DNA from: a virus
Virus record (IMG/VR): IMGVR_UViG_3300030106_001842
Location: 1 to 30,541 of that record
Direction: 5' to 3' (one strand)
Length of the DNA stretch: 30,541 bases
Shown here: piece after piece, positions 7,629-30,541 of the stretch
Layout of the letters: every line of letters begins with the position of its first letter
Position numbering within the stretch: the stretch's first letter is position 1
Notes under the pieces: model-generated
Database searches by the model: none
The model's input: only the letters and a program-made list of their open reading frames with translations
Told to the model about the DNA's origin: nothing
Translations under genes and position numbers: made by a program

Positions 7629-7844
7629 ATGACAAAAATTAATCCAAAAAAACTTTCAGAAGCAATAGCTTTAAGTGAAACCAAAAATATATATGGTGAA
7701 GAAGCTATGTACAGAAATAACTACGATGAGTTTAGAGGTTTAGTAATGCATGATATTGTTAAAGATACTTACAATAAAATGTGTGAAAAATACTATAAAG
7801 TCATTATGTCTGCAATAGAAGAAAAGGAGAAATGGCAGAGTTAG
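7629..7844 (+). CDS. Small hypothetical helical protein
   Basis: The 71-residue product has no recognised motif. It is mostly helical, rich in Lys, Glu and Tyr, with the segments PKKLSEAIALSETKNIYGEE and HDIVKDTYNKMCEKYYKVIM. The ATG follows an A/T-rich leader (TAAATAAATTATT) typical of this genome, and its end overlaps the next gene by 13 bases, so it is probably translated as part of the same operon. It may be an accessory to the neighbouring nuclease or to the cyclotransferase-like enzyme; the sequence does not decide. Confidence 0.6.
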   Translation: MTKINPKKLSEAIALSETKNIYGEEAMYRNNYDEFRGLVMHDIVKDTYNKMCEKYYKVIMSAIEEKEKWQS

Positions 7845-8185
7845 TATTTGTATACGGAACCTTACGAAAAGGTCACGGTAATCATGTGCTTTTAAAAGAT
7901 TCAAAGTTTATTGACTATGGTTTTACAAAAGATAAGTATGCTATGTATCATACTGGTATACCATTTGTTAATGAACATGAAAAGGTGTCTAACATATTTG
8001 GTGAAGTATATCAAGTATCTGGACATGTATTGGAAATGTTAGATTTATTAGAAGGTCACCCTTCTTGGTACACAAGAAAAAAGATAGCTGTGCGTGGTAA
8101 TAAAAAGAAACACCACGCATGGCTATACTTTAATGATAATAATTCAGGTGTACTAATAGAATCAGGAGACTATGAAGATAAATGA
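7832..8185 (+). CDS. Gamma-glutamylcyclotransferase-like (AIG2/GGCT) protein
   Basis: The product starts MAELVFVYGTLRKGHGNHVL. The YGTLRKG motif at 8-14 is the substrate-binding loop of the GGCT/AIG2 fold. The catalytic acid is most likely E74 in MLDLLEGHPSWYTRK, the family's conserved L-E-G-x-P-x-x-Y block. GGCT enzymes cyclise gamma-glutamyl groups to pyroglutamate and free the attached amine; other members act on gamma-glutamylamines. At 117 residues it is a minimal but complete domain. It overlaps the genes on both sides (13 and 4 bases). Its pairing in one phage with an amidoligase at 401, which could make such amide bonds, is suggestive. The fold is secure, the substrate unknown. Confidence 0.85.
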   Translation: MAELVFVYGTLRKGHGNHVLLKDSKFIDYGFTKDKYAMYHTGIPFVNEHEKVSNIFGEVYQVSGHVLEMLDLLEGHPSWYTRKKIAVRGNKKKHHAWLYFNDNNSGVLIESGDYEDK

Positions 8186-8427
8186 AAAAGCACACTAAGA
8201 TATATTTAAAATATTTTAACTATGCTTTAGACGATATCATACCATGCACGGTATGTAATAGACAAGCTGTTGACATCCATCACATTGAAAGACGTGGGAT
8301 TGGGGGGTCAAAAAACAGAGATTACATAGAGAATCTTGCAGCCTTGTGTAGGGATTGTCATAATAAAGCTGAAAGAAATAAAGAGTTCAACTTAATGGTA
8401 AAAAAACGCCATCTAAAATTATTATAA
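8182..8427 (+). CDS. Small HNH-type nuclease
   Basis: The 81-residue product has the beta-beta-alpha-metal nuclease pattern. There is a first CxxC at C22/C25 (PCTVCNRQ), the DIHHIERRG motif at 31-39 with H33/H34, then GGSKNRDYIENLAALCRDCH at 41-60 with N51 and the second zinc pair C56/C59 followed by H60. The active-site order H-N-H and both structural zinc pairs are intact, so it should be active. Small HNH proteins in this position in phages are often recombination or repair nucleases (NinG/Rap-like); a homing nuclease is less likely because it lies in-line in the operon, overlapping both neighbours by 4 and 1 bases. Confidence 0.8.
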   Translation: MKKHTKIYLKYFNYALDDIIPCTVCNRQAVDIHHIERRGIGGSKNRDYIENLAALCRDCHNKAERNKEFNLMVKKRHLKLL

Positions 8428-8888
8428 TGAGATTAACTAAAGAACAATCAACAGGTAATGAATCAATAGACAACCTGTTAATATTAACGTGTAGACTTGC
8501 TAAAGTTAGTGTAAGCGACCTATTAGGTTCTACGAGAACGGCTAAGGTAGCAGAAGCTAGGGTTTGTGTTGGTAAAGTATTAAGAGAATGCTTTGATTTA
8601 ACCCAAGTAGAAGTTGGTGAAATACTTAACAGAGACCATGCTACTGTACATTTCTACGAAAAAGAACACTCTACAAGAGTTAAGTTTAGATACTATTCAT
8701 CTATGTACAATGAACTAAAAATGTTTGCAAGAGATGAGGGTTATGAAATAGACTCTTCTTCTGTAGTTAGGAATTCTGAAGTAGATAAGTTGCGTATAGA
8801 AATATCTACTTTGCGTAGTCAAAACAAGAGACTAAGAAACGAACTAAAGCTAGTAGAATCATTTAAGAAAAGTTTATTATCTTTGTGA
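8427..8888 (+). CDS. DnaA domain IV-like DNA-binding protein with coiled-coil tail
   Basis: Residues 26-90 match the DnaA C-terminal DNA-binding domain: VSVSDLLGSTRTAKVAEARV, a helix, LTQVEVGEILNRDHATVHF with the signature RDHATV at 69-74, then a basic helix. In DnaA these residues read the 9-base DnaA box. There is no AAA+ ATPase domain. Instead the C-terminus (about 118-147, VDKLRIEISTLRSQNKRLRN) is a heptad-like coiled coil, probably for dimerisation. It could be the phage's origin-binding protein, or it could compete with host DnaA. It is the last gene of the + block and starts with a 1-base TAATG overlap. The domain match is strong; the role is inferred. Confidence 0.75.
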   Translation: MRLTKEQSTGNESIDNLLILTCRLAKVSVSDLLGSTRTAKVAEARVCVGKVLRECFDLTQVEVGEILNRDHATVHFYEKEHSTRVKFRYYSSMYNELKMFARDEGYEIDSSSVVRNSEVDKLRIEISTLRSQNKRLRNELKLVESFKKSLLSL

Positions 8889-10745: not shown

Positions 10746-11024
10746 CTACTTTTTACCCCTATTTCTAGCCCTATTTCTTTTTTGAGCTTCTAATATAAGA
10801 CTTCCGCCACGAGTGTGGGACATATCTTTTTTATCACCTTTTCTACTTAATTTACTTTTTTTATTTGCTTTATTTAAAGAAGCTCTATATTTTCTTCTTT
10901 CTGTAGAACTATGATATTTGGTATCGTATGCTTTCTTTTTATCTCTAGATTTTTTATTTTTTGCGTAGAACTTTGCTGTTCTAGAAGTACCATTTCTTTT
11001 ACCTGCTAATGTATTCCTTGCCAT
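10746..11024 (-). CDS. Very basic small protein, possibly a degenerate HNH-like domain
   Basis: The 92 residues are about one third Lys and Arg (KNKKSRDKKKAYDTKYHSST, RKYRASLNKANKKSKLSRKG). The end GDKKDMSHTRGG...KRNRARNR resembles the GDGKD-x-x-H block of small phage HNH-like proteins, but the later Asn and His are not in place. If it is such a relative, it is probably inactive as a nuclease. The charge fits DNA binding or packaging inside the virion. It is the last of five consecutive small basic genes transcribed after the holin. The function is not known. Confidence 0.6.
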   Translation of the reverse strand: MARNTLAGKRNGTSRTAKFYAKNKKSRDKKKAYDTKYHSSTERRKYRASLNKANKKSKLSRKGDKKDMSHTRGGSLILEAQKRNRARNRGKK

Positions 11025-11025
11025 T

Positions 11026-11295
11026 TTAATTGTGTTGTATTATTCCGCCAAGACCTTTTTTCTTTTTTCTTTTATATCTACTAACTCTACCCTTTGTATT
11101 TTTTTCTTTTTTAGCACGAGCCTTTTCAGAAGCACTTAACTCACTCCATGTACTAGGTGTTTTTTTTGACACTCTTTTAGTGGGTCTAAATGTATTTTCT
11201 CCTTTAGAATAATCTTTATTACCCCTAGGAGTTCTCCAATCCTCTTTAAACCAACGTTTAAGAGCTAATCCTTTTTTGGTTTTACGTACAGCCAT
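11026..11295 (-). CDS. Small basic protein with KRWFKEDW / RPTKRVSKKTPSTW motifs
   Basis: The 89-residue product carries GLALKRWFKEDWRTP at 9-23, FRPTKRVSKKTPSTWSELSA near 36-55 and a Lys-rich end. This motif pair (K-R-W-F-x-E-x-W, then R-P-[ST]-K-R-V-[ST]-x-x-T-P) is, from memory, a widespread domain of unknown function in marine phages, algal viruses and protists (DUF5872-like), often fused to a KDACY.KV..RY domain. Here that second domain is the separate gene that precedes it in transcription, sharing one base (TAATG). The role is unknown; the charge suggests nucleic-acid contact or a virion component. The absence of the usual cysteines between the two motifs is notable. Confidence 0.65.
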   Translation of the reverse strand: MAVRKTKKGLALKRWFKEDWRTPRGNKDYSKGENTFRPTKRVSKKTPSTWSELSASEKARAKKEKNTKGRVSRYKRKKKKGLGGIIQHN

Positions 11296-11486
11296 TAATC
11301 TTTTTGATATTCAAATAAACAACCAATCATACCACCGTGTTTCATTTTTTTCTTTTTCTTTTTACCTCCTTCACCCCAATTAGAAACTCCAACTTTTCTA
11401 CATTTTGCCATAGCGCCACTTCTGTATGCTGATGTTTTAGGTCCGTACCTACTTACTACTTTATGATAACATGCGTCTTTTGCCAT
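11295..11486 (-). CDS. Small basic protein with KDACYHKVVSRYG motif and KHGG motif
   Basis: The 63 residues begin AKDACYHKVVSRYGPKTSAY and continue SGAMAKCRKVGVSNWGEGG, a compact motif with two conserved cysteines seen in many marine phage and algal virus proteins of unknown function. A seven-residue Lys run and MKHGGMIGC follow. The KHGGM element recurs in the protein at 14570-15253. The gene shares one base with the next one and sits 6 bases after the preceding 42-residue gene in transcription order. The two cysteines may bind a metal across the dimer. The function is not known. Confidence 0.65.
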   Translation of the reverse strand: MAKDACYHKVVSRYGPKTSAYRSGAMAKCRKVGVSNWGEGGKKKKKKMKHGGMIGCLFEYQKD

Positions 11487-11492
11487 AATTAT

Positions 11493-11621
11493 TTACTTTT
11501 TTTTAGGAGCAGTATGCCCATATCCTTTTTTCTTTAATTCTAAATGTTTTTTATATGTATTAGCTTTTACTGCTTTACCAGCTTTACTATACATCGTGTG
11601 TGCTTTAAATTTTTTTGCCAT
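11493..11621 (-). CDS. Very small basic protein (42 residues)
   Basis: The ATG lies at 11621-11619 and the TAA at 11495-11493. The product begins MAKKFKAHTMYSKAGKAVKA and ends LELKKKGYGHTAPKKK. From memory this matches a recurring small marine-phage protein with the pattern K-A-x-T-Y-x-x-H-L-x-L-x-K-K-G-Y-G-H. It fills the 137-base space between the neighbouring genes with 2- and 6-base gaps and shares their charge. The function is unknown; a role in DNA condensation or the virion is possible. Confidence 0.6.
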   Translation of the reverse strand: MAKKFKAHTMYSKAGKAVKANTYKKHLELKKKGYGHTAPKKK

Positions 11622-11623
11622 AA

Positions 11624-11953
11624 CTAATCGTGTTGCGAATACATTCCTCTAGATGGCGTAACACACCCAGATTCACAATTCCATTTTCTTAATGATTTAT
11701 TTATTCTTGAATTAGGGTCTCTTGCCGTCTTTGCACTAGTTCTTCTTTTTTTCATACCCTTCATTCTAGCACAAAAAGACTTTCTTCTCTTAGCAGCCTT
11801 ACTACCTTTTTTTAATTTCTTAGGGTCTGTGGTAACAGCAGTTTTAAGCTTAGAGCCTGGATTAGCTCTTCTATATGAAGCTACTCCTTTTTTATTTAAA
11901 CCTCCACTAGGACTTTTACCCTCTTTACGTTGCCACGCAGGTGATTTAGCCAT
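11624..11953 (-). CDS. DUF6321-like small basic protein
   Basis: The 109-residue product begins with SPAWQRKEGKSPSGGLNKKG at 4-23, continues YRRANPGSKLK, then RKSFCARMKGMKKRR near 57-71 and SLRKWNC near 88-94. This motif string is characteristic of a widespread phage domain of unknown function which I recall as DUF6321, common in cyanophages and other marine phages. The R-x-x-S-F-x-A-R-M-x-G-M core is intact. Its role has not been shown. It begins 2 bases after the holin stop and is followed within 2 bases by the 42-residue gene, so it belongs to the post-lysis cluster of small basic genes. Confidence 0.8.
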   Translation of the reverse strand: MAKSPAWQRKEGKSPSGGLNKKGVASYRRANPGSKLKTAVTTDPKKLKKGSKAAKRRKSFCARMKGMKKRRTSAKTARDPNSRINKSLRKWNCESGCVTPSRGMYSQHD

Positions 11954-15255: not shown

Positions 15256-16005
15256 TTAATCTATTTTATATTTAACAACACCGTCTTGGATATAAAGTCC
15301 CTCAGGTTCTTTTATTGCTTGCCCCAACAAGTTATAAATTCTGTTATCTGCTTTTGATTGATTTAATAAATCAGGTAGGTTAGATGTGCAAGGAAGGCCT
15401 GTATCACAATCTAAATACTCTGTGTTTATAATTTCTACATACTCTATTATAGTGTCTGTAGTAAAAAATTCTATATATTCAGTTTCTATTTGTACTATTG
15501 TATCAAAGATAAATACATCTACATATTCTATAACATCAATGAATAAAGTGTCTAATACATCTTCATATATAGTTAGTGTGTCTGTTATGTATATATATTC
15601 AGGAACAAATGTTTCTACCTCTACTGTGTCTATTACAATTTGAGTTATATATTCTATATCATATATAGTATCTGTTTGAAAAATTGTTTCATATATGTAA
15701 ATAGGAACATCTACAAATAATGTATCACAATCTGGCGGAGGTGGTAAACAATCTAATAAATTTGTAGGTACAGCAGGTATACCATCATCTCCTGTTTCAT
15801 CGTCTCCATTTACACAATCTAACCAACCATCGTTGAGATAATAGAGACCATTAAGACCATTAGGTACACAACCATTAGGAGAATAAACCGTCCAATTGCT
15901 TTGGTCGTCACCACAATAAAACCCTCCTTGCGCAACGCATTCTTGACAATTTGTTTGAGCAAATCCATAATTAAATACAAATAATAATATTAATAACTTC
16001 TTCAT
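15256..16005 (-). CDS. Secreted protein with LDL-receptor-A-like motif and T9SS-like C-terminal tail
   Basis: MKKLLILLFVFNYGFAQ at 1-17 is a signal peptide with a typical Bacteroidota FAQ cleavage end. Residues 19-70 are Cys-rich and end NDGWLDCVNGDDE, spaced exactly like the calcium-binding DG-x-x-DC-x-x-GSDE box of LDL-receptor class A repeats, preceded by C-V-P like that repeat's CIP. Residues 93-200 are a low-complexity run of Asp-Thr plus Tyr/Ile/Val/Glu (TDTLTIYEDVLDTLFIDVIE), probably an extended beta linker. The end (NRIYNLLGQAIKEPEGLYIQ, 221-240) looks like the last strands of a T9SS type A sorting domain. It may be sent to the host cell surface or mimic such a protein; virion attachment is the alternative. 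Confidence 0.65.
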   Translation of the reverse strand: MKKLLILLFVFNYGFAQTNCQECVAQGGFYCGDDQSNWTVYSPNGCVPNGLNGLYYLNDGWLDCVNGDDETGDDGIPAVPTNLLDCLPPPPDCDTLFVDVPIYIYETIFQTDTIYDIEYITQIVIDTVEVETFVPEYIYITDTLTIYEDVLDTLFIDVIEYVDVFIFDTIVQIETEYIEFFTTDTIIEYVEIINTEYLDCDTGLPCTSNLPDLLNQSKADNRIYNLLGQAIKEPEGLYIQDGVVKYKID

Positions 16006-16006
16006 A

Positions 16007-17098
16007 CTACAAAAATAAGTAATTTATTCCAATCTTAAATTCGTAAACAGGTCGCATCCAGAATCTTTGGTGAGTTCCTTCAATAAAGAACCCTAGATTC
16101 TTAGAAAACTTAACACCGAATACTAATCCCATGTCCCACTCTATTATGGCTGGTATGCTCTCCTGAGCCCAATCTTCGTCATTATAGTCAAAGCTATAGT
16201 CATCTAGACCGAAGTGGTAAGGGAGAACATTCATCCAGCCGTGTAACCACCAATTAGAAGACCATTTATAATAAGCCGCTCCAACAACAACAGATAGTTC
16301 TTTTTGTAAACCTAACTTACGTAGTTCTCTGTCATTAAAGTCATCAATAGCATTACCAAAATGATGCTTCATAAATTCTCCCGTAGTATGAGCAACTTGT
16401 ATAGAGTCTCCACTAGATACATCAAACCAATCATAGTTTACATATCCTGCTTGACTCCATTGTTCACTTACATACCCAAAGTCCTCTGCAATCTCAGAGA
16501 ACGGCGTTACAGCTGGGTCCCAAAAATCATATATTGGGAGAAAACCATATGTAGGGTGCATTCTAAAAGCAGCACCCATTGAGAAATCAAAGTTTCCCAA
16601 GCTTTTTCGCCATCTTATATCAGATAGCATATACTTTAAATCAAACTTTTGGTTGTCTACAAATTGAGCTTTTACAAGGTACGAATCACTCAAATAACGT
16701 AGGAAATAATCTTGATTTATAAACTCATTCCCTCTATCTCGTACTAAAGATATATTAGCAAGGTACTCAAAGCCTTTAGCGTTACCTACAGGAGCTTTAT
16801 TTGATATTTGTGACTCTGTACCATCATAAAAAGTTTTGACCTTGTATTCGTAATCAAAACGAGCCACCTTACGTAGTCCTATAGTGTAGTTATAATCAAA
16901 AGGATTAACCTGTGTTATATCTATTAACTCCTTGTCTTCTATCTTAAACATACCATCTTCTAGTGTAGAAGAACCTGTAGAACTTGACACATAGAACGTA
17001 GAGTATTTAAAAAAGTTTTTAATCTCTTGGGAACAACATTTTTTTGGAGTAGCACAAGATATCAATAGAACTACTATTAGTATTATTGCTTTTTTCAT
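16007..17098 (-). CDS. Outer-membrane beta-barrel-like lipoprotein
   Basis: The N-terminus MKKAIILIVVLLISCATPKK has a lipobox LISC with C15 as the lipidation site, so the mature 349-residue protein should be membrane-anchored. The body is rich in aromatic residues and alternating strands (SVVVGAAYYKWSSNWWLHGW, EWDMGLVFGVKFSKNLGFFI) and ends EFKIGINYLFL, an aromatic and hydrophobic end like that of outer-membrane barrels. The combination suggests an outer-membrane protein made late in infection, perhaps to block receptors against superinfection, or a virion component with barrel-like strands. No enzymatic motif is seen. It sits 2 bases from the structural gene on one side and 1 base from the secreted protein on the other. 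Confidence 0.55.
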   Translation of the reverse strand: MKKAIILIVVLLISCATPKKCCSQEIKNFFKYSTFYVSSSTGSSTLEDGMFKIEDKELIDITQVNPFDYNYTIGLRKVARFDYEYKVKTFYDGTESQISNKAPVGNAKGFEYLANISLVRDRGNEFINQDYFLRYLSDSYLVKAQFVDNQKFDLKYMLSDIRWRKSLGNFDFSMGAAFRMHPTYGFLPIYDFWDPAVTPFSEIAEDFGYVSEQWSQAGYVNYDWFDVSSGDSIQVAHTTGEFMKHHFGNAIDDFNDRELRKLGLQKELSVVVGAAYYKWSSNWWLHGWMNVLPYHFGLDDYSFDYNDEDWAQESIPAIIEWDMGLVFGVKFSKNLGFFIEGTHQRFWMRPVYEFKIGINYLFL

Positions 17099-18874: not shown

Positions 18875-21800
18875 TTAGTCTTTAGCAAACCTCTCTCTTA
18901 CAACACTAGGGAATAACCTAGCTAATCTACCCCTAGCTTTTGATTGGCCTTTGTCTCCATACTTAGCATCTCTTTCATAAACATCTCCTGACACTAATTC
19001 TTTCATACCAAATACCATATTTTCCCCTGTTTGTAGGGCAGGTACACCTGCCATGTATCTCCATTTATCTACATTAACCATTAGGTTCATATCCCAAAAT
19101 AACTTATTTAAATACTTAACTGTTCCAGTTTCATCATCACCCTCTCCAAATGGTTTTAACGCGGCTATCATGCAAAGAACTAACATAGAACCACCTGTAC
19201 CTCTTGCGAATCTTAATACAGCTTCCTGTCTGTGTTTAGGTAGTTTACTATATTCTTCTTTAAAGTCTCTTATCCCAAATTTTCTTTTATTATACATAAC
19301 GTCTATAAGGAACTCAGGCGCAGCTCTATAAGCACCTATGTAACCCCTACCACTTCTTGTTAACTTTTCTGAAGATAACCTATCCATAATAAAAGTAGGA
19401 AGCCATCTTTTAAATTGTAATACCCCATGGAGTATACTGTAGTGTTGTATCAACCTTTGGTCTAAAGCAGTGTAACCTTTACCTTGAACTTCATATACTT
19501 TTTGTTTCATTTCGTCAGCCTGATTCTCTAAAGCTCTAAACTCAGCTTCCTTGCCAGGTATAACCCTAACCTCACCATCAACTACCTCAAAAGAATTCCA
19601 TTGATTTTCTTTTATCATTCCAACAAATTGTGTTCTTTGTATATACTTTTCAGAACCAGTCATAAAAGCAAATACCATTTCACCAAAACCACTAGCAAAT
19701 AAATCTTCACTAACTTGTGCTTGAGCATCAGTGATTAACCCAAAGTATTTTGTAATAGCTCTTGTTTTATCTGCGTTTGTTTTATTAAAACCTTTTATTC
19801 CAAAACCAAAATATCTTCTTTCACCTACAATCCAGCCAACTCCATTCTTTTTATCCCTTAACCCTTGTTGTCTAAAGGTATTGTATTTACCAATAGCAAT
19901 ATTACCTACTGCTGCAGTAAAATTCAAACCAAGACCAACAAACATAGTCCATTTATGTAAAGCCTCAAACACATTATCAGCCCAATGTCTTTTCCCGTCT
20001 TTTGTAAGAAAAGATTTTCTACCAGCTTTTCTAGCATACTTTTCTAGTAGCAATTCTTTAATCCATCTTTGGGCCTTTGGGTTGTTTTTAAAAGAAGCAT
20101 AAGATATAGCAGCATCAATAGCAGGTATTTGTTCTATAATACCTTGGTGCTTAAAACCTTCTTGACTATCTAACCCATAGTTAAATACCATTTTATTTAC
20201 ATATGTAGTTAACGACCTGTGTAAATCAATGGTTGCACCAAAGCCAGAACTAAAAGAACGTTGACTTAAATACCTATCTATAACCTCTGGTTGAACTATG
20301 TTTGAAGCGTCATCTGCTGTAACAATAGGATTACCTATAGCATCTGTACCTTTTTCTACATATTGATTTGCTTGTTTAATTAGTTTCTTTAACTCTCTTC
20401 TTACAGCAATATCTGATTTACTTGTTTTTTTATTAGCTTGCTTTGCCATGTACTCATTAATAATCTCACCCAAAGGTCTAGCTTCTGTTTTACCTTCTTC
20501 TAATACATACACATCTTTTAGTTTATTAGAGTAGTTGTGCATTATATAAGAGGCTACAAGGTTTCTAGCAAGAGCCATCTCTGTTATGGAGGCGGTTAAA
20601 TGAGGAACATAAGTCTTTCCTTTATCCTGGTCTTTTGGTAAAACAATATTACCATCTTCACCTATCTTTTGATTTAAATGATTCTTAACCATTCCAGTCA
20701 TCTCCATAAACATCTCTCTATAAGCTAACTCTTCTTGTGTAAGTTTATTTTTTATAGCAACTATCTCTTCATCATTCTTTAATCTTAGATGTCTTTTTAC
20801 GTATTCACCGTCTGGGCTTAACTCTTCGTGTACATAAGTTATGTTTTCAAATAACTTTCTGTTATAGTAGTATTTAATAACAGCTGGTCCAAATCTATAT
20901 AATAAACGTTGTACTTTACTAAGTTTCTTTTTTAATAAAGCTTGGAAAGCTGTGTCCATTTTCTTATTTAACTTAGCCATATCCTGTTGATAAGATATTT
21001 CAGACTCACTAAGTCTATTAAGCACACCACCAATCTCAGCTCTTTCTGGGTTACTTATATCTGGGTTTAACCACATATCACCCCCACCAATATCTTCTCT
21101 TAAAGAATCAGGGTTTCTGTATTTTACTTTAGCTGCCTCTAATTCAGATATCAACTTTTCTCCTAATCTATTTTTCTTTGCTTTACTTAAGTTATCATTA
21201 ACAGCTTCTAAACCAATCTTAGCTCCAAGTACCCTAAGGAAAGCTTGGTAAATCTTAGCTCTAGCTTCAGTGTCTAAAGGTCTAAGTTCATTTTTTATTA
21301 TTTGCTCTAACTGTAAGGCAGTGTATTTATCTGACTCTATTTCTAATACACCAAATTCATTAGGTGATAAGTATTTAGCAGAAAGTTCGTTAGCTGTACG
21401 TAAATCTTGTTTATACTTATCATATTCTTCTAAACGCATTTTTCGTTCTTTCTTATTCAAAAGAGAAACATCTACTTGTTTTGTTTTACCTTTGTTAACA
21501 TATTGCTGGAAAGTCATTTCTCTTTGGAAATCTAGATAGTCTGACATATCCTTAGACATATACATATATTTAGATGCAAACTTACCATTATAGTCTACTA
21601 TCTTATCTCCATTTATAACTTCTTTTGCTTTGTATATATCACCCTCTTTCTTTACATATATCTTATTACCTGTATCTAAATCAACATGAGAGTATTCGTA
21701 ACCTTCTTCTTTAAGACTTTCAACATTAGCATTATCTTCTACTTGAACCTCTTCTGCGGAGTTTATATATTCTATGTCTGTATTGTGTTCAAGTAAACTA

Positions 21801-24800
21801 GACTCACTTGGTAGTAAAGAGTCATGTGTAAAGCTAGCTTCAACAGGATATAAAGCTGTAGAACCCCCCTCTATTTGACTAACTTTATAAATAGCTGTTA
21901 CACCATTAGATAGTTCTATAGATTTAACAGAACCACTTGGTATGTTACTAAGACCTTTTTGCACAGTCAATACACCATTTTCAGATGTTACTGTTCCATT
22001 GCTTTCTACACTTAATGGTTCAGCCTTTTGTCTTATGTTAAAGTTTACATAATCTTCTACTTGTTTTCTATAAGCTTCTGAAAGAAATTTAGGTCTTTGT
22101 TTTTTAACGTGAGACTGGCTTTTTTTAGATATTTTTTTTGTACGACCACCTAAGTATGGTAGTATAGCATTAGGACCACTATGATTATTCATTACTAAAT
22201 CCCATAATAATAAATAGTCTTGTACATATCTTGGTAAAGCTTCAAAGTCTTTCGCAACTTGTTTTGCGTTTGCATTTCTTAAAGCGCTAGTAGGAACTAG
22301 ATTTTTATTAGTAGACTTTTTCTTTACTAAGTTAGTTGGTGTAAACACATATTCACCATCTTGTTTAGAAACCTCAACAGGAGTAGAAGAACCTTTTTTA
22401 TCTTTTCTTGTTATAAAGTTACTTTCTTTAGTCTCTTGTATTTTAAAATACTTATTTATAAATGGGTGTTTAGCTACCTCTATTTGTTCTAAGTCTTGTT
22501 TAAGTATTGTTTTAATAGATGACATAGAGCCATAAGAGTCTATAAAGTCTTGAGAGTCTTGAAGTACCCTAGGCATAGCGTCTAAATTAATTTGATACGA
22601 ACCATCTTGAGCTAATCTCCAAGAACGAACTAAGTCTTCTACTTGTTTAATGTTTTCTTTTTTGTATTTCTCTACAATGTTATTATAACCCTGAGAGTTT
22701 GCTGGGTCCATTACCTCAAGCATTTTAGAACTTGCAGCAAGAGCATTTACATTTCTTCTTAATATAGGGTTTTTAATATTTAAAGAGTTAACAAAGGTTG
22801 TGTATTGACCTTTGTTTATAAGTTCATTTAGTTCTTTAGGATTCTTAATAGAAGTAACTAAGCCTGTAACATTTATGTTTCTATTTTTCATTAAAGAAAC
22901 AATATCTTTCAATAGTTGTTTCTGTTCTGTGTGTGTTTCAGGTATAAAGTTCTCTAGGTTAACTAGCTTTCTTAAAGTCCAAGAAGGTGAGTTGTATTTA
23001 TTGAAGTTGTAAAAAAGATTTCTAATTGCAACATCTTGACTACCATCTGCAACTTTACTAATATCTATATCAGAAACCTCACTAAGCTCTTTTACTTCTC
23101 TATTTACATCATTTTTTATAAACTCATTTAAGGTGGTTCCATTATTTTGAAAATCAGATACTGCTCTTTTCATAAATGGAGAGTTAATTAATACCACAGC
23201 ATCATTAAAAGAAATACCCCTCATAACAAGCTCTGTTAGTGGACCCACTGTTACAGAGTTCATATTTAATTTAGCCCCTCTACCTTTGTTTGCTTCATCT
23301 AAGAATATGTTTAGTATACGAGCTAAAGAAATCCACGCATTGTTATTATCTTTGTAACTACTTTGTAAAGCATTCTTACCCACGTTAACTTTTAAATCAG
23401 CAACCTGAACGTTATGTGTGCTTAGTATTTTATGGAACGTATTAATAGAAGCTGATGTGCCTATATTACCTCTACCCATTATGTTAGAACGATACTTAAG
23501 GTTGTCACCTAAAAAGCTTAAATCATTTATGGTTGCCTCTATAGGTTTTAATCCAGCTTTTACAAGAGCTCTTTCTGCATTATCTGCAAACGACTCAAAG
23601 TCAACAGCTTCTTGCATGTGTTCGATATTAGCAGAAAGGGTAAGGAAGTTAAACATTTTATCAAACGAATCATTGTATTGTTTAGCTTGTTTAGACCTAC
23701 CCATTATATGTAAAGAGTCTCCGTCCATATCAGAACCTATAATATCAGATAGGTCTGAAGGTATTTGCACAACACTACCAGTTTCTCTAAATACAGATGT
23801 AACAACAGCTGGTATATTATCTCCCATTTTAGAGTTAGGTATTCTAGTTAATATAATCTTATCTCCTTCTTTAAAACCTAAACTAACATCTAAAGCAACT
23901 TCTGCAGGCTCAAGGTTTCCATTTTCATCTAACCTTGGTTTACCCTCTTTATCAAAATAACTTTGTAGTCCAGCAGATTCAGATATATCTCCTGTTTCTA
24001 TCTCTGTTCCATAACCAAAGTCTGTTGTTTGGTAACCAACAGTACCAGAGCCTTGTGGAGTTCTAATTCTTAATAACCTTTTCTTAACAATAGATATTAT
24101 TTTACTTCTTAATATCTCTACAGAACCACTGTCGTAACTACCATCTTTTAATAAAGCCATTGCAGATTCTCCGTATATATCTACATCTGTTTCTTTTATT
24201 AACTCTTCTCTTAATTCATTAATAGACTCTACACTAACCTCACCATTACCAGACATAAACTTAGAGAACTTACTTAACTCTTTTCTAGAAAATATCTCTA
24301 AACTTTCTAACACAGCTAAACCTTCAGATTGCGTTTCTGGGTTAGATAGTAAATTTAAAATAAGTTGTTTGCTTACTATTGATGTAGTGTGCTTTCTATC
24401 TAATTCTGTCTGAACACCTAAATACTTTCCATCTAAACCATTAAGGTCTTCATCTTTAAATAACCCATCTTGATGTTCATTTAAAGCGACACCGCCATCT
24501 TTATTCAACTCAACTAATTTGTTCATGTCAATTAATTGATTTTTAAACTTATTAGATTGAACCTTCATTGCAGAACTAAAAGCAGCCATAGGAATAACCC
24601 CCTCTTTTCTTCTTAATTTTAATGCTTCAGCAATAGGCTTTAAATTAGGGTTTAATTTTAAAAATGAATCAGATAATACAAATGTATTAGTCTTTAAATA
24701 AAAAGGGTATCGTTTACCTACCACACCTTCAAATGTTTTGTTATCTACGTTTTGTCCATAGTAAACAAACTTATGGTGATTACCCACATTTCTTCTACCC

Positions 24801-27800
24801 CCATAACTAACACCAACTATTTGAGAGTCTTCTGGTAAAATAAACGACGGAGCATCTGTTCTGTTAATCTTTCTTGATTTGCCATCTTTATCTTTTATGG
24901 TTAATGTTTCATCTTTTAACATCAAAGGTTCAAATCTTCTTCCGTGATTTACATTCATAGCAACAGAACCTGCTGCTCTTTTTATATAGTCGTCATTATT
25001 TTTAAAATACTCCGCCTTACCAATTAAAAGGTCTTTGGCATAATATTTGTTTATAGCATTGTTTAGGACTATTTGCTCTAAAGCTTTAGTGTTTCTAGAT
25101 AAAGACTTTAAAGAAGTGTCTTTCGAACCTTTAATTATTCTTTGTAAGCCTTTTACATCTCTTTGTATATCAGCGTCTGTAAAATTAAAATACGCATCTC
25201 CATTTGTAAACTTAACCCCATCTTGATTAAGTTTATCTTTAATAACTCTACCCTCTTCTAGTGTTAACAATTTAGTGTTAGTAACATGAAGGTTCATATC
25301 TTTATCAGCTACAATAGATACTGACTGACTATATGTTTCATTACCATTAACTATGGCTTGAGCTATTAAACTAACCTCTAGTATTGTTTTTTCATTAGCA
25401 GTTTCATTACCTGAGTCTATACCCTTACCAAGTACTACCGAACCATTTATTTGAGCTACATTAATCTTTTCTTCTCTATTAAGTATATAGTTATTAGTGT
25501 ACACATTGTCACCAAACATATCTTTTATTTCTTCGTCACTCATAGATGGTAACTGTTCTTCTACCAAAACATCTGCTTGATGTCTTTTAGATATAAAGTT
25601 TTTCTTATTGCCTTCAGGTGTAAGTATTTGAGAAGAAAAATCACCAAGAGCTATCTCTGATGATAGGTATTGTGTAATAATATTTTGAGCCTTATATCTA
25701 TTAGAGAATTTAAGACCACCGCCTTGATGAAGTTGTATAGTGCCATCTGCATTTAAGAAAATTCTAGCTTGAGTATTGATATTACCTTCCTTAATAACTC
25801 CAGACCTTCTAATTAATTTACCTATACTAATTATATCTTCTTTAGATATAAGCTCATCTTGTAAGGCTTGTTGTGTCTTTTCACTTGACTCCCAAGCTCT
25901 CCAAGCCTTAACACTTTCTTTGTTAAATCTTTCAGCGCTAAAACCAACTTGCCAGCCAGCTTTTTTGCCATTTAATTTATAAGTTTCAATCATACCATGG
26001 TCTTCTATTAGTTGGTCAACCAAGGTTTTATTTGTTTCTTTATCTTTAGTTACAAACTTATCAACAAAGTCTTTACTTATTAAGTCTGCATTTATATCGT
26101 CCTTATATTCACTTAAATAATTATCTGTTAAAAACTTAATAACAGCTTTCTTAGATTCACTAGGATTCTTTGCTTCCTTTAACGAATCACTCAAAGTAAT
26201 AATAGAAGATAAAAATTTTATTTTACTTATTTCTTGAGAACTTAATGTTTTACTATCTTTAGGTTTATCAACAGTTATAGATTGTCTAAATCTTTTTTCT
26301 ATATCTGTTTTTATAGTGCTAGCATCTACACCAAATGTTTGTTTAATGTTTGTTATAACTTCCCCTTTTTTGTTTTTAAATACATTTATATTATGAAAGT
26401 TTATTTGTTTATAAGAAGAAAGCTCATGGTGGTAATCTAAGATTGGACTAGCTAAACTCATACCTTCTGATGCATACACCTCATTCATATAAACAAAGTA
26501 TCTAGCTAACAACTCTTCTTCTCTACTTAAAAGTTTAGGAGACAAAGTTAATGTTCTTATGTTATCATCAATTTCTTGTTCAAAACTTTTAGGGTTGTTT
26601 CTATACTTAAAAGCTTTGTTGTATAAAGCTGACTTTATCTGTCCGTGTGTTACAGGTATACCCTGTACACTTTCTCCTAACTTAACATAAGAAGATATGT
26701 CTTTACTTATATTTTCGTTTACCCCATTTCTGTTATCAAAGTCAAATAAATTGTACTCATTTTCTTCTAAATCTTGTTCTGTTGAGCTAATATTTTCTTG
26801 AGCGTTACTAAAAGCAAGTACTTTGAAAGCTGTATTTAAAATATTATTTCTATTGTTGTTGTAGTGATTTAATTCATTACTACCCTCTGGGTATAATTCT
26901 TTTATAAAAGAGTTTACTTCTTGTCTGTTTTCAGATATAAAAGTAGACACAGCTTTTTTACCAGCTACAGTTAACATTCCATCTTTAGTTCTATATAAAG
27001 AACCTTGTAGTTTATCGTCTAATTTAGACTCTTGTTTTAAGGTTTCTAAATAACCTAATATGTCTGAGGATATTTGATTAGTTAACATAGTAGAGTTTAA
27101 GTCTTCTACATGTAGCATTTTATCACTACCCAGTCTATCCCTTCTTATATTATAAGCAGGTCTTTCTTTTCTAGAGTCTTTTATAAGAGTGTCAATAACA
27201 TTGTCTAGTTTAGCAAGCTCTGAATTACCAGTGTTTTCTAGTATAGTCTTAGATTCTTTTTTAGTAAACCTACTTTTTATCTTAGAATAAAACCTTTTAA
27301 CTATATTATCTCTTTTCTTATCATCTTTTTTTAATATATCCCCATTAGTTTCTTGAGCTTCTGTTTTAGACATAAGGTCTACTATTACCTCTTCAAGAAT
27401 AATTCTTTGTTCTACATCTGGCAATAAAGTAAATCCTAACTTCTTTGCTTCTGGTTTTAAGTATTCTAAATAACCATTTATTGATTTATCTGCACTATCT
27501 GTTTGTTTTGCCCAAGCAGTAAAACTTAGTATGCCGTCAAACTTTATTAAGTCATTAAGAGTTTTTACTACACCATTAGAGTCTTGTAACAATAATTGAT
27601 TAGTGTAACTAGGGTTAGACATCTTCTTTTTAAACAAAGGTTGGTTAACAACTAACTCAATAGCTTCTTTTATTATAGGATTAACCACCCTATTTCCTTT
27701 GCTATCTACTTTATATGTACCATCTTTATTTGTTTCATACCACATTTCATTTACATAGATGTGATTAAGCTCATGGAATATAGTTTCTTGTGTAGCAGTA

Positions 27801-30538
27801 TTGCTGTTTAAATAAATACTTAAACCTTGAGCCATACCATAATATTTTTTAGAATCATCTGTTCTAAACATATAATCAGCTACAACAGGATTAATACCTT
27901 TTTTCCTAAGCATTTTTATGATAACCTTTTCCTGTGCTATATTTCTTTCTGCTGGTTTACCAGACATAGCTTTTTCTACTTTACCTACAGAACCTAGTTT
28001 TAATGATGTGTTTTGTAATTCTGCTTTTTCTTTTTCAAGAATTTCTATTCTATCTTTTATATCTTCAGCAAGACTCTTAGACTTTAATACAGGCTCTACT
28101 ATAGTTTGACCTAAATACTCAAACGTTCCATATTCAAGAATACCATCTTTAATAGCTTGTTGCAATGTACGGTAGTTTTTGTCACCCTTAAATGTAGGGC
28201 TACTTTTTTGAGATGTATTTAAATTATTCCACCAGTTTAATGCTTTTTGAACTTTTTCTGGAATTTTAATTGTATCAGCTCTAGCTTGTTCTATATCTTG
28301 GTCTATCTCTGTTATTCTTTTTCCTGCATCTTCCCTTTTCTTATGCTCTTGAAGTAAAGTGTTGGTTGTATTAAAATATTCTGCTTGCACGACTATCTCT
28401 TGTGCTGTAAGAGTTTCTCCAGCTATTTGTTTACTAACTATGTGTCTTAATAAAGGAGCAATAGCATTACCAGTTCTTGTGTAAAACTTAAGAGCATCTT
28501 TTAACTGCTTGTTATTTAATCTACTTTTTTTACTAGTTAAAGGAGCAGATTCTTTTTTATTAATTCTTTTTACAGAGTCTAATGTTTTTTTATCATTAGT
28601 CTCTTTCATAAAAACTTCTGATGCTTTTGTAAAACTTTCTCTAGTTCCCTTTGCCTTAGTCTCAGTAGCAGGAGCCTGCTCAACAGCAGTTGGTGTAGTG
28701 ACCTCTTTTTCTCTAGCCATGGCTTCTCTCATTCTAGCCTGCTTAGCACTTAAAGCTTCTTTTTGGTTCATTACATTTTGGTCTTCTAAGGAATACACTT
28801 CTTGCATAGCACCTGTAATACCTTCAATGTCTTGCTGGTAAGCCTGATTGGTTTGAAGCTGTTCTTGTTTTATAGCTTCTATTTGAGCGTCAATAAAATC
28901 TTTTCTGTTTTTATATTCAGGTTGTTCTCTTTTACTTTCCCATCCTTGTATTTGTGATTCATAAAAATCATTACTATCAGCTAGCTCTTCTCTAGAGTGT
29001 CTCATTACATGGGATAACTTAACTAATTGTTGTCTACCCCTAGAACTTAATTTTGATAAAGATTTTGGAGCAAAACCCATTTGAGAAAAAGAATCTGCCA
29101 TAGAGTCCATTGTCTCAATTAAATGTTTTCCTTCTTTTTCAGTTATTCTACCTGCTGCAACTTCCTTTTCTATGTTAGCTTTACCAAGGTCTTTCTCTCC
29201 ATTACCTATTATATTGGCAATAAGGTCTTGTTTGTATTGTTCGTGTTTATGTATTTCTGATTCTGCTTTACTATCTATACCACTTTGAAAACCTTTTTGT
29301 CTTACTATTTCAGCGGCCTTAGCGAATACCATTGAGGAGCCAGTATCATCAGATAAAAGAGTGCTTTCTATCTTTTCATCTAAAGCAAAGTTTCTTTCTG
29401 CAGCAATATTAATACCATCTTTAAATGCATTATAAACAACACCAGCACCACCGCCAATACTTCCCATAGCAAAAGATATAACTCTTGTGTCTGCAACTTC
29501 TGGGCTATTATAATACTCCCAATAACCAACATCATAATCTTCTCCTGTTGCCTCAGCCACTCTTTTATTAACTCTCCAGTCTTGATAAACCTCTTGTAAC
29601 TCTTCAAGTTTACCGTCACTGATAACAACACCAGAACCTATTAAAAGGTCTGAAGCTGCATTTTTAAAGTTAACACCTGATTTAAGTTTTAATCTACTAC
29701 CTATTGCGCCAACACCTTTTGTTAATATACTATATTGAAGACCATCTACCATTATCCATTTAGCATTGTCTTTCATTACATTCCATCCAGCCATTGCTGC
29801 TTGGTCTTTTGTCGCTCCACCTTTTAATGCGTCTCTATAACTTTGACCAGCAAGCATGGCTCCTTCAGCAAAGTTACCTCCTATTGCTCCTCCAAAAAAC
29901 TGAGCAACATCTTCTCCTTTAATAACTAATCTAGAAGCATTACCCCCACCTTTATTACCAAAGTATCTAATATTTTTTGTCAATTTATCTGAACTAAATA
30001 CAGTAGCTTTACCAAATTTAGTAGAGTTTGCCAATCCTCTAGCCACCTTAGCTCCACCTGAAGCTGGTATTAAAAAAGTTAATAAGTTAGGAATTTGTTT
30101 AACTAACTTAGTATAGTAAAACTTAGGATTAAGTAATTGTTTATAAGAACCTTCTTCTAATCCAGACATATCTATTTTATCGTCCCAAGTTTCCATTTCT
30201 TCACCTAAGTTTCTTAAGGCTCCAGTAAAAGAAAGGTTCATATCTACCCCAAGTAGTGGGCCATAATCAAGAGAAGCGCCACCACCAGGCATAAGGTTAG
30301 CAGAAGATTTATTAAGCCAATCTATAGTATCAGCAAACCCAACTAAAACTTGTCCAGTACCAGCAGCAAAGCTTCTTAAGAATTCTCCAGCTACAGAATA
30401 ATCTCTAACAGATATACTAGAATTATAAGCTGCAGTTTTAGCTATCTCTCCAGCTTCTTCAGGTAGCTCCATAAAGTCTAACACATTAGTTCTTTGCTCA
30501 TATTCTTTCATAAAAGCTTGACCTTCTGTGTATCCCAT
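18875..30538 (-). CDS. Giant virion protein with RNA-polymerase-like double-psi-barrel motifs and HELNH zincin site
   Basis: At least 3887 residues; the frame remains open upstream of the first ATG (a Tyr codon lies before it), so the true start may be outside the window. Hydrophobic Gly/Ala segments around 148-166 and 208-226 (FFGGAIGGNFAEGAMLAG) suggest a membrane-crossing ejected protein. H922-E-L-N-H926 with E1049/E1050 in LEEVIVD forms a gluzincin-like site. FSSAMKVQS with K1992 resembles the lysine block of the beta-type barrel. TRIPNSKMGDNIP from about 2231, then IIGSDMDGDSLHIM with D2270/D2272/D2274, resembles the beta-prime barrel metal loop DxDGD, and FLDEANKGRG near 2412-2422 follows as in related giants. 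The C-terminal 700 residues are helical with further hydrophobic segments near 3540 and 3780. The virion RNA polymerase role is inferred. Confidence 0.8.
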   Translation of the reverse strand: MGYTEGQAFMKEYEQRTNVLDFMELPEEAGEIAKTAAYNSSISVRDYSVAGEFLRSFAAGTGQVLVGFADTIDWLNKSSANLMPGGGASLDYGPLLGVDMNLSFTGALRNLGEEMETWDDKIDMSGLEEGSYKQLLNPKFYYTKLVKQIPNLLTFLIPASGGAKVARGLANSTKFGKATVFSSDKLTKNIRYFGNKGGGNASRLVIKGEDVAQFFGGAIGGNFAEGAMLAGQSYRDALKGGATKDQAAMAGWNVMKDNAKWIMVDGLQYSILTKGVGAIGSRLKLKSGVNFKNAASDLLIGSGVVISDGKLEELQEVYQDWRVNKRVAEATGEDYDVGYWEYYNSPEVADTRVISFAMGSIGGGAGVVYNAFKDGINIAAERNFALDEKIESTLLSDDTGSSMVFAKAAEIVRQKGFQSGIDSKAESEIHKHEQYKQDLIANIIGNGEKDLGKANIEKEVAAGRITEKEGKHLIETMDSMADSFSQMGFAPKSLSKLSSRGRQQLVKLSHVMRHSREELADSNDFYESQIQGWESKREQPEYKNRKDFIDAQIEAIKQEQLQTNQAYQQDIEGITGAMQEVYSLEDQNVMNQKEALSAKQARMREAMAREKEVTTPTAVEQAPATETKAKGTRESFTKASEVFMKETNDKKTLDSVKRINKKESAPLTSKKSRLNNKQLKDALKFYTRTGNAIAPLLRHIVSKQIAGETLTAQEIVVQAEYFNTTNTLLQEHKKREDAGKRITEIDQDIEQARADTIKIPEKVQKALNWWNNLNTSQKSSPTFKGDKNYRTLQQAIKDGILEYGTFEYLGQTIVEPVLKSKSLAEDIKDRIEILEKEKAELQNTSLKLGSVGKVEKAMSGKPAERNIAQEKVIIKMLRKKGINPVVADYMFRTDDSKKYYGMAQGLSIYLNSNTATQETIFHELNHIYVNEMWYETNKDGTYKVDSKGNRVVNPIIKEAIELVVNQPLFKKKMSNPSYTNQLLLQDSNGVVKTLNDLIKFDGILSFTAWAKQTDSADKSINGYLEYLKPEAKKLGFTLLPDVEQRIILEEVIVDLMSKTEAQETNGDILKKDDKKRDNIVKRFYSKIKSRFTKKESKTILENTGNSELAKLDNVIDTLIKDSRKERPAYNIRRDRLGSDKMLHVEDLNSTMLTNQISSDILGYLETLKQESKLDDKLQGSLYRTKDGMLTVAGKKAVSTFISENRQEVNSFIKELYPEGSNELNHYNNNRNNILNTAFKVLAFSNAQENISSTEQDLEENEYNLFDFDNRNGVNENISKDISSYVKLGESVQGIPVTHGQIKSALYNKAFKYRNNPKSFEQEIDDNIRTLTLSPKLLSREEELLARYFVYMNEVYASEGMSLASPILDYHHELSSYKQINFHNINVFKNKKGEVITNIKQTFGVDASTIKTDIEKRFRQSITVDKPKDSKTLSSQEISKIKFLSSIITLSDSLKEAKNPSESKKAVIKFLTDNYLSEYKDDINADLISKDFVDKFVTKDKETNKTLVDQLIEDHGMIETYKLNGKKAGWQVGFSAERFNKESVKAWRAWESSEKTQQALQDELISKEDIISIGKLIRRSGVIKEGNINTQARIFLNADGTIQLHQGGGLKFSNRYKAQNIITQYLSSEIALGDFSSQILTPEGNKKNFISKRHQADVLVEEQLPSMSDEEIKDMFGDNVYTNNYILNREEKINVAQINGSVVLGKGIDSGNETANEKTILEVSLIAQAIVNGNETYSQSVSIVADKDMNLHVTNTKLLTLEEGRVIKDKLNQDGVKFTNGDAYFNFTDADIQRDVKGLQRIIKGSKDTSLKSLSRNTKALEQIVLNNAINKYYAKDLLIGKAEYFKNNDDYIKRAAGSVAMNVNHGRRFEPLMLKDETLTIKDKDGKSRKINRTDAPSFILPEDSQIVGVSYGGRRNVGNHHKFVYYGQNVDNKTFEGVVGKRYPFYLKTNTFVLSDSFLKLNPNLKPIAEALKLRRKEGVIPMAAFSSAMKVQSNKFKNQLIDMNKLVELNKDGGVALNEHQDGLFKDEDLNGLDGKYLGVQTELDRKHTTSIVSKQLILNLLSNPETQSEGLAVLESLEIFSRKELSKFSKFMSGNGEVSVESINELREELIKETDVDIYGESAMALLKDGSYDSGSVEILRSKIISIVKKRLLRIRTPQGSGTVGYQTTDFGYGTEIETGDISESAGLQSYFDKEGKPRLDENGNLEPAEVALDVSLGFKEGDKIILTRIPNSKMGDNIPAVVTSVFRETGSVVQIPSDLSDIIGSDMDGDSLHIMGRSKQAKQYNDSFDKMFNFLTLSANIEHMQEAVDFESFADNAERALVKAGLKPIEATINDLSFLGDNLKYRSNIMGRGNIGTSASINTFHKILSTHNVQVADLKVNVGKNALQSSYKDNNNAWISLARILNIFLDEANKGRGAKLNMNSVTVGPLTELVMRGISFNDAVVLINSPFMKRAVSDFQNNGTTLNEFIKNDVNREVKELSEVSDIDISKVADGSQDVAIRNLFYNFNKYNSPSWTLRKLVNLENFIPETHTEQKQLLKDIVSLMKNRNINVTGLVTSIKNPKELNELINKGQYTTFVNSLNIKNPILRRNVNALAASSKMLEVMDPANSQGYNNIVEKYKKENIKQVEDLVRSWRLAQDGSYQINLDAMPRVLQDSQDFIDSYGSMSSIKTILKQDLEQIEVAKHPFINKYFKIQETKESNFITRKDKKGSSTPVEVSKQDGEYVFTPTNLVKKKSTNKNLVPTSALRNANAKQVAKDFEALPRYVQDYLLLWDLVMNNHSGPNAILPYLGGRTKKISKKSQSHVKKQRPKFLSEAYRKQVEDYVNFNIRQKAEPLSVESNGTVTSENGVLTVQKGLSNIPSGSVKSIELSNGVTAIYKVSQIEGGSTALYPVEASFTHDSLLPSESSLLEHNTDIEYINSAEEVQVEDNANVESLKEEGYEYSHVDLDTGNKIYVKKEGDIYKAKEVINGDKIVDYNGKFASKYMYMSKDMSDYLDFQREMTFQQYVNKGKTKQVDVSLLNKKERKMRLEEYDKYKQDLRTANELSAKYLSPNEFGVLEIESDKYTALQLEQIIKNELRPLDTEARAKIYQAFLRVLGAKIGLEAVNDNLSKAKKNRLGEKLISELEAAKVKYRNPDSLREDIGGGDMWLNPDISNPERAEIGGVLNRLSESEISYQQDMAKLNKKMDTAFQALLKKKLSKVQRLLYRFGPAVIKYYYNRKLFENITYVHEELSPDGEYVKRHLRLKNDEEIVAIKNKLTQEELAYREMFMEMTGMVKNHLNQKIGEDGNIVLPKDQDKGKTYVPHLTASITEMALARNLVASYIMHNYSNKLKDVYVLEEGKTEARPLGEIINEYMAKQANKKTSKSDIAVRRELKKLIKQANQYVEKGTDAIGNPIVTADDASNIVQPEVIDRYLSQRSFSSGFGATIDLHRSLTTYVNKMVFNYGLDSQEGFKHQGIIEQIPAIDAAISYASFKNNPKAQRWIKELLLEKYARKAGRKSFLTKDGKRHWADNVFEALHKWTMFVGLGLNFTAAVGNIAIGKYNTFRQQGLRDKKNGVGWIVGERRYFGFGIKGFNKTNADKTRAITKYFGLITDAQAQVSEDLFASGFGEMVFAFMTGSEKYIQRTQFVGMIKENQWNSFEVVDGEVRVIPGKEAEFRALENQADEMKQKVYEVQGKGYTALDQRLIQHYSILHGVLQFKRWLPTFIMDRLSSEKLTRSGRGYIGAYRAAPEFLIDVMYNKRKFGIRDFKEEYSKLPKHRQEAVLRFARGTGGSMLVLCMIAALKPFGEGDDETGTVKYLNKLFWDMNLMVNVDKWRYMAGVPALQTGENMVFGMKELVSGDVYERDAKYGDKGQSKARGRLARLFPSVVRERFAKD

Positions 30539-30541
30539 ATA

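Follow-up and report, generated by a model that had tools for sequence, protein, structure and literature searches.

A Predicted Two-Barrel RNA Polymerase Within the Giant Single-Chain Protein of an Uncultured Crassvirus-Type Phage Lineage

The Window and Its Giant Open Reading Frame

The stretch of DNA analyzed here (the window) is an entire virus record of 30,541 bases. It carries a giant open reading frame (ORF) on the minus strand (18875..30541) that encodes 3887 amino acids from its first ATG and whose 5' end is open at the contig edge. Two further records, G001 (62,941 bases) and G002 (24,647 bases), share 97% identity with the window over the searched RNA polymerase (RNAP) region. The giant frame of G001 has 77 further codons ahead of the first ATG in the window, and the window protein therefore lacks its N-terminus. 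The G001 giant gene extends from position 51805 across the contig end, and with the part beyond that end added we estimate its full length at ~4,040 amino acids. The first 98 bases of G001 are repeated identically directly before its last two bases, and this terminal repeat suggests that the genome in this record is complete, at about 62.8 kb. Uncut giant ORFs of the family, from the loci of our profile scan, range from 3,744 to 4,701 amino acids, each in one ORF. The same single frame occurs in many records, which rules out a single assembly artefact as its source.

The gene order in G001 is terminase, portal, capsid, tail proteins, a stabilization-type protein of 1991 amino acids, three smaller proteins of 527, 767 and 612 amino acids, and then the giant gene, which stands in the structural arm. 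Comparable sites are occupied in phage phi14:2 by gp078-gp076, which follow three smaller virion-protein genes, and in crAss001 by gp47, which follows gp44-gp46. The proteins gp076, gp077 and gp078 of phi14:2 are annotated as structural proteins detected by MS/MS.

Several other genes of the window can be described. Positions 1-414 encode the last part of a protein that, in its G001 copy, starts like a class-II glutamine amidotransferase as judged by eye. An Amidoligase_2 gene lies at 401-1759 (2.1e-19) and a gamma-glutamyl cyclotransferase gene at 7832-8185 (4.3e-24). The three are possibly a peptide- or glutamyl-modification set, and phi14:2 gp048, gp049 and gp051 carry comparable annotations. 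The product of the phage gene at 8427-8888 contains a Bac_DnaA_C DNA-binding domain (E 3.9e-9), and positions 10746-11953 encode a tandem run of small proteins (92, 89 and 109 amino acids) that are very rich in lysine and arginine and perhaps condense DNA.

Conserved RNA Polymerase Motifs

The initial annotation placed three RNAP motif blocks in the giant chain, and all three are found there on the minus strand. The sequence FSSAMKVQS begins at residue 1987 and includes the predicted lysine of a beta-like barrel, K1992 (codon 24563..24565). The sequence TRIPNSKMGDNIP begins at residue 2231 and holds the R-x-P motif of a beta-prime-like barrel (R2232-I-P2234, 23837..23845). The third block, GSDMDGDSLHIM, begins at residue 2268 and contains the predicted metal loop D2270-M-D2272-G-D2274 (23717..23731). 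R2232 and D2270 are 38 residues apart; the corresponding spacing in the E. coli beta-prime subunit is ~35.

Related loci numbered 52 in a portal scan and at least 80 in a TerL scan. A protein search with residues 1850-2500 matched 18 of 29 longer related virus records, with best E values no higher than 4.2e-18. The giant ORF was examined in 17 of the 18; G012, whose match is nearly equal to that of G013, was left out. D.DGD occurs exactly once in every one of the 17 ORFs, and HExxH is present in 16. K1992, R2232, P2234, G2268, D2270, D2272, G2273 and D2274 are identical in all 18 rows of the alignment, the window included, as are R1854, D1895, K1923, K1949, Q2043, Q2058 and N2289. The layout that had been read as a beta-prime barrel, with R-x-P leading to the metal loop, is thus conserved throughout (R2232, P2234, D2270, D2272 and D2274, 18/18) and also aligns with the phi14:2 enzyme. 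A wider profile scan returned 38 loci; because it required the pattern G[SA]D[LKM]DGD, all of them carry that motif by construction. Together with the window, 33 of these form a 34-row alignment, from which five near-copies, duplicates or truncated loci were excluded. K1949, K1992, R2232 and P2234 are invariant in all 34 rows. Invariance across so diverse a family rules out a chance motif.

Conventional searches gave no indication of a polymerase. Searches of the window giant with Pfam and PHROG matched no RNAP family, a single-sequence phmmer search of the PDB with the same protein returned nothing, and Pfam identified no RNAP family in the 34 members of the RNAP alignment. One explanation would be an ejection protein that retains its RNAP-like part as a remnant, either decayed or structural. 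The divergence is high enough that a tblastn search with residues 1601-2800 matches none of 50,697 phage records at E 0.01, and so finds no member of the family in a named phage. However, a remnant would be hard to reconcile with catalytic residues that remain invariant in 18 of 18 rows while identity to the window falls to 19%, and we consider this reading scarcely credible.

Relationship to the phi14:2 Virion RNA Polymerase

The virion RNAP (vRNAP) of phi14:2 is called gp66 in the literature, corresponds to gp077 of KC821624 and has been deposited as PDB 6VR4. A profile of the 18-row family alignment identified this enzyme (6vr4_A) as its top match in the PDB at E 9.3e-15, followed by gp96 of phage P23-45 (3.7e-4 and 6.1e-4) and one other chain at 0.29. 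With the 34-row profile the match to 6vr4_A improved to E 7.8e-19.

Whole-length comparisons were made by hhalign with a profile built from 34 giants. The ranges given here are from the run without realignment, because realignment shrank several of them to a few columns. Residues 1819-2459 (23162..25084, minus strand) align to residues 859-1657 of phi14:2 gp077 at E 1.7e-14, and the aligned pairs include K1949/K1027, K1992/K1065, R2232/R1322 and D2270/D1361. The RNAP region also matches proteins of the uncultured crAss-like phages cr118_1 (3.3e-14) and cr1_1 (1e-6), crAss001 gp50 (2.2e-11) and CrAssphage LMMB (8.4e-9). In control comparisons, phi14:2 proteins that had been reversed or shuffled (six in all) gave E values of 0.054 or worse; comparisons with phi14:2 gp079-gp081 gave 0.085 or worse, and those with crAss001 gp45 and gp46 gave 0.65 or worse.

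The fold points the same way. An AlphaFold2 model of residues 1750-2689 (22472..25291, minus strand; pLDDT 82.8, pTM 0.81) has 6VR4 as its best Foldseek match in the PDB (E 3.0e-21, TMq 0.67), followed by QDE-1, RDR2 and P23-45 gp96. The Foldseek rmsd to 6VR4 is 10.1 Å across all columns, which counts against the match. VIA aligned 824 residues of the model to 6VR4 at 4.7 Å with a Z of 17.0; the Z for QDE-1 (17.3) ties with this value, but with far fewer residues aligned (475). A search of a viral library with the model returned many crAss-like proteins, that of phi14:2 among them. Comparison with T7-like domains covers the two modelled regions, residues 1750-2689 and 752-1131, the first of which matches two-barrel polymerases.

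A comparison of profile and structure with the phi14:2 enzyme had been named in the initial annotation as the check on its polymerase reading, and 6VR4 is the best PDB match by both routes. The single-chain two-barrel reading is accordingly backed by the profile matches to 6VR4 and gp077 and by the predicted fold. The same matches rule out an unrelated protein that happens to carry DxDGD. Homology, fold and invariant active-site residues together support the identification of the centre of the chain (about residues 1790-2690) as a DNA-dependent RNA polymerase that belongs with the crAss-like vRNAPs and has two barrels in one chain. Homology predicts that the beta-like barrel contributes K1992 and the beta-prime-like barrel the metal-binding residues D2270, D2272 and D2274.

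Other Modules of the Giant Protein

The window chain is collinear with three adjacent, separate virion proteins of phi14:2, in the order gp078, gp077, gp076. Residues 132-313 (29600..30145, minus strand) form a gp078-like module (phi14:2 gp078 residues 155-351, E 1.9e-7), and residues 3523-3877 (18908..19972, minus strand) form a gp076-like module (phi14:2 gp076 residues 975-1399, E 1.7e-8) that is also matched in hhalign by crAss001 gp49 (4.3e-8) and a 2007-amino-acid protein of cr1_1 (1.5e-8). Between the gp078-like and RNAP parts sits a zincin-like metallopeptidase domain with an HExxH...E signature.

To follow the modules through the family, profiles were built from nine close relatives each (six for the C-terminal module) and run on 25 other giants. 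The RNAP profile matches all 25. The gp078-like module (profile of residues 49-313) is found in 23; of the two misses, L177 is cut by a contig end and L191 is real. The gp076-like profile matches 22, and all three misses are cut at the 3' end by contig ends. The zincin-like profile matches 20 of the 25, missing L184, which has no HExxH, and L188, L189, L192 and L193, in which HExxH is present but the match falls below the profile threshold.

The zincin-like domain spans residues 890-1062 (27353..27871, minus strand) and contains the candidate residues H922, E923, H926 and E1050, with the HELNH motif at residues 922-926 (27761..27775). An HExxH motif with a downstream glutamate is the order expected of a gluzincin. 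Both Q1044 and E1050 are present downstream of HExxH in 32 of 32 rows, these rows having been selected for HExxH; the motif is absent from two of the 34 giants, L151 and L184. The L151 giant matches the zincin-like profile (1.1e-32) without an HExxH, and so it is the motif that is missing there and not the domain. The model of the region (residues 752-1131) has a pLDDT of 65.8, and with this low-confidence model the best Foldseek E is 1.4 and the best VIA Z is 4.7, neither to a zincin. A profile of the region matched nothing in the PDB. Pfam likewise found nothing in the window region, and among 33 members its matches to peptidase families were one weak Tox-MPTase2 (0.0027) and one SprT-like (0.087). 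The initial annotation's protease-like site thus survives as conserved HExxH, Q1044 and E1050 residues and gains no zincin match from Foldseek, VIA or the PDB profile search. Because the model of the region is poor and matched nothing, the label zincin is taken from the motif.

A Pfam E3_binding (peripheral subunit-binding) domain lies at about residues 800-860, before HExxH, in L179, L181 and L182 (best E 8.5e-12). Six of the 33 members of the zincin-region alignment A3 match this family.

Pore-like segments had also been described in the chain. At a threshold of mean hydropathy >=1.6 the window giant contains no such segment, and two of nine giants scanned have one each. The related phi14:2 gp078 has a single segment (residues 172-190) above this threshold, which falls within the module it has in common with the window giant. 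The chain may therefore form a pore or may not.

Relationship to Crassvirales

Pfam matches above cut-off in G001 are Crass_capsid (6.4e-36) for the capsid and the tail-ring families CrAss_Ring_1 (2.7e-28) and CrAss_Ring_2 (6.4e-13) for two tail proteins. Its terminase, portal and capsid each fall into a head family of PHROG. The G001 portal is less than 30% identical to those of named phages, nearly all of which are crAss-like among the best 60 of 139 matches. In an unrooted portal tree of 19 rows, from which cr114_1 and cr7_1 were excluded because their translations end prematurely, the window family makes up a single branch (100/100) with crAss001 and phi14:2 beside it (91/91), a join of long branches that may be false. 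Judging by these relatives, the host is probably a member of the Bacteroidota.

G001 encodes a Bac_DNA_binding (HU/IHF-type) protein in its replication arm (15990-16214), and no IHF-type protein was found among the five structural-block proteins scanned. Inspection by eye of the G001 ORF list (L006-L009) found no ORF that obviously encodes a DNA polymerase.

Proposed Role of the Giant Protein

From the demonstrated homology, fold, invariant active-site residues and module order, we consider it very likely that in this crassvirus-type phage the giant serves as a cargo (ejection) protein made by fusion, with a vRNAP at its core. The chain would be packaged in the head, as its homologs among the virion proteins of phi14:2 and crAss001 imply; detection of crAss001 gp47, gp49 and gp50 in virions by mass spectrometry is described in PMC10172136. 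It would then be threaded through the tail partly unfolded, as in the model put forward in that paper, and refold in the host. There the RNAP would transcribe early phage genes without host RNAP, a role for which the phi14:2 polymerase is the precedent (PMC10136315). The outer modules may help in crossing the envelope; the zincin-like domain may cut its own chain or a host protein.

The polymerase could instead be a real two-barrel RNAP that is made during infection and does not enter the virion, as with gp64 of P23-45, which shows that a related two-barrel enzyme need not be a virion protein (PMC10770324). However, the giant gene stands in the structural arm, and the phi14:2 relatives of the modules fused to the polymerase are annotated as virion proteins detected by MS/MS, with further virion detection described in PMC10172136. 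We regard a non-virion enzyme as improbable.

A narrower proposal is compatible with an injected vRNAP: the uncut chain would be held in the entry pore and transcribe during DNA entry, and the zincin-like domain would not process it. Entry-coupled transcription has been hypothesized for vRNAPs fused to large proteins (PMC10770324) and is raised as an open question for coliphage N4 in a preprint (PMC12633501). The homology of the N-terminal module to phi14:2 gp078 and the presence of one ORF throughout the family are in keeping with such a chain, whereas the window giant offers no segment above the hydropathy threshold, and tethering cannot be essential since phi14:2 delivers the modules as separate proteins. 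We give this proposal a little less than an even chance. A more tentative scheme, and on balance a rather unlikely one, would turn the entire injected transcription kit of a crassvirus into one polyprotein, cleaved by the zincin domain it contains while injection proceeds or afterwards so as to free active RNAP; the giant would then correspond by convergence to the N4 vRNAP, with polymerase folds that are unrelated.

A search of G001 intergenic DNA for a repeated early-promoter k-mer found nothing above shuffled sequences, which counts against the proposed role. A scan for TTTG-N-TAnnTTTG, which we take to be a host-type promoter motif, gave 4 matches against 2.5 expected. The papers searched yielded no virion proteomics or biochemistry for the window phage.

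If the giant is an injected vRNAP, these data add an uncultured lineage to those with a packaged two-barrel RNAP. The lineage is represented in many IMG/VR records, and one of its members is apparently complete at about 63 kb, compared with about 100 kb for phi14:2 and crAss001. The full fusion fixes the stoichiometry of the modules at one to one, and it makes the passage of the vRNAP through the tail, whole or cut, a directly testable question.

Comparison with Known Systems

The initial annotation described the fusion of the polymerase with a protease-like site and pore-like segments as apparently unusual. It is less so than this suggests, because partial fusions occur in named crAss-like phages (CrAssphage LMMB, cr118_1 and cr1_1). 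In the five named crAss-like phages examined, such parts are divided over two or three genes and not joined in one ORF as in the uncultured family described here. Crass-like RNAP genes are described as reaching about 6000 amino acids (PMC10136315), and fusion of vRNAPs to large proteins is described for crAss-like and N4-related phages (PMC10770324). In the titles and abstract openings listed by our literature searches on crAss-like RNAPs and proteases, we found no report of the full one-chain fusion.

Cellulophaga phage phi14:2, among the nearest known systems, has the two-barrel core, the aligned K, RxP and DxDxD motifs and the order gp078-like, RNAP, gp076-like in common with the window chain. 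It differs in encoding these parts in three genes (gp078, gp077 and gp076, with 1797, 2180 and 1421 amino acids) where the window family has one ORF, and in its genome of 100 kb compared with about 63 kb. Its metal loop reads DFDID and that of the window family DxDGD, which counts against the likeness. In addition, the phi14:2 HExxH lies within gp076 (residue 245), whereas that of the window stands before the RNAP; the match between the two is not significant (hhalign E 0.22).

Other crAss-like phages divide the block elsewhere. CrAssphage LMMB encodes an 'RNAP associated protein/zincin protease fusion' (1957 amino acids) followed by an 'RNAP catalytic subunit/RNAP subunit fusion' (4070 amino acids). 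The first contains a gp078-like part (4.2e-5) and HExxH, and in the second the RNAP is fused to a gp076-like part (1.3e-5), so that two genes hold what is a single chain in the window. In cr118_1 (4946 amino acids) and cr1_1 (4551 amino acids), HExxH and the RNAP DxDxD share one ORF, as in the window, but the next gene is separate; it is gp076-like in cr1_1 and weakly so in cr118_1 (1667 amino acids, 0.0054). The gp078-like part is weak in cr1_1 (0.0019) and was not found in cr118_1 (0.91). In Bacteroides phage crAss001 three genes are used. The RNAP (gp50) and the gp076-like gp49 are recognizable, and gp47, which is encoded on the other strand from these two, has an HExxH near its end that is in register with that of the window, albeit weakly (E 0.023); gp47 has no significant gp078-like match (0.1 or worse). 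Matches in Fpv1 are weak (RNAP 0.00057, next protein 0.002), and the 1551- and 2085-amino-acid proteins of ProJPt-Bp1 have no significant match.

A fixed order of all four modules is contradicted by the HExxH of phi14:2 gp076, by that of Fpv1, which follows the RNAP motif (residue 4179), and by a second HExxH in the protein following the cr1_1 giant; the position of the HExxH domain varies among lineages. The layouts suggest that a conserved series (gp078-like, RNAP, gp076-like) underlies the cargo of crassviruses and is divided into three genes, two genes or one at different joints. In the window protein, an RNAP of a known type is part of the most complete fusion, at the extreme of a known series.

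More distant systems share parts of this design. The Thermus phage P23-45 likewise carries a two-barrel vRNAP inside a giant virion protein, gp96 (profile E 3.7e-4, VIA Z 11.1), but that enzyme is described as clamp-less and fused to a tape measure protein (PMC10770324). The eukaryotic RNA-silencing enzymes QDE-1 and RDR2 have the two-barrel fold in common with the window protein (VIA Z 12.6-17.3). In organization the parallel is coliphage N4, whose giant, injected gp50 is described as joining an N-terminal part to a polymerase and a domain with HExxH (PMC12633501, PMC5512222). The N4 polymerase is of the T7-like single-subunit type and its HExxH domain follows the polymerase (preprint PMC12633501), so that a giant injected chain combining a polymerase with an HExxH domain would have been reached in the two cases by way of different polymerases.
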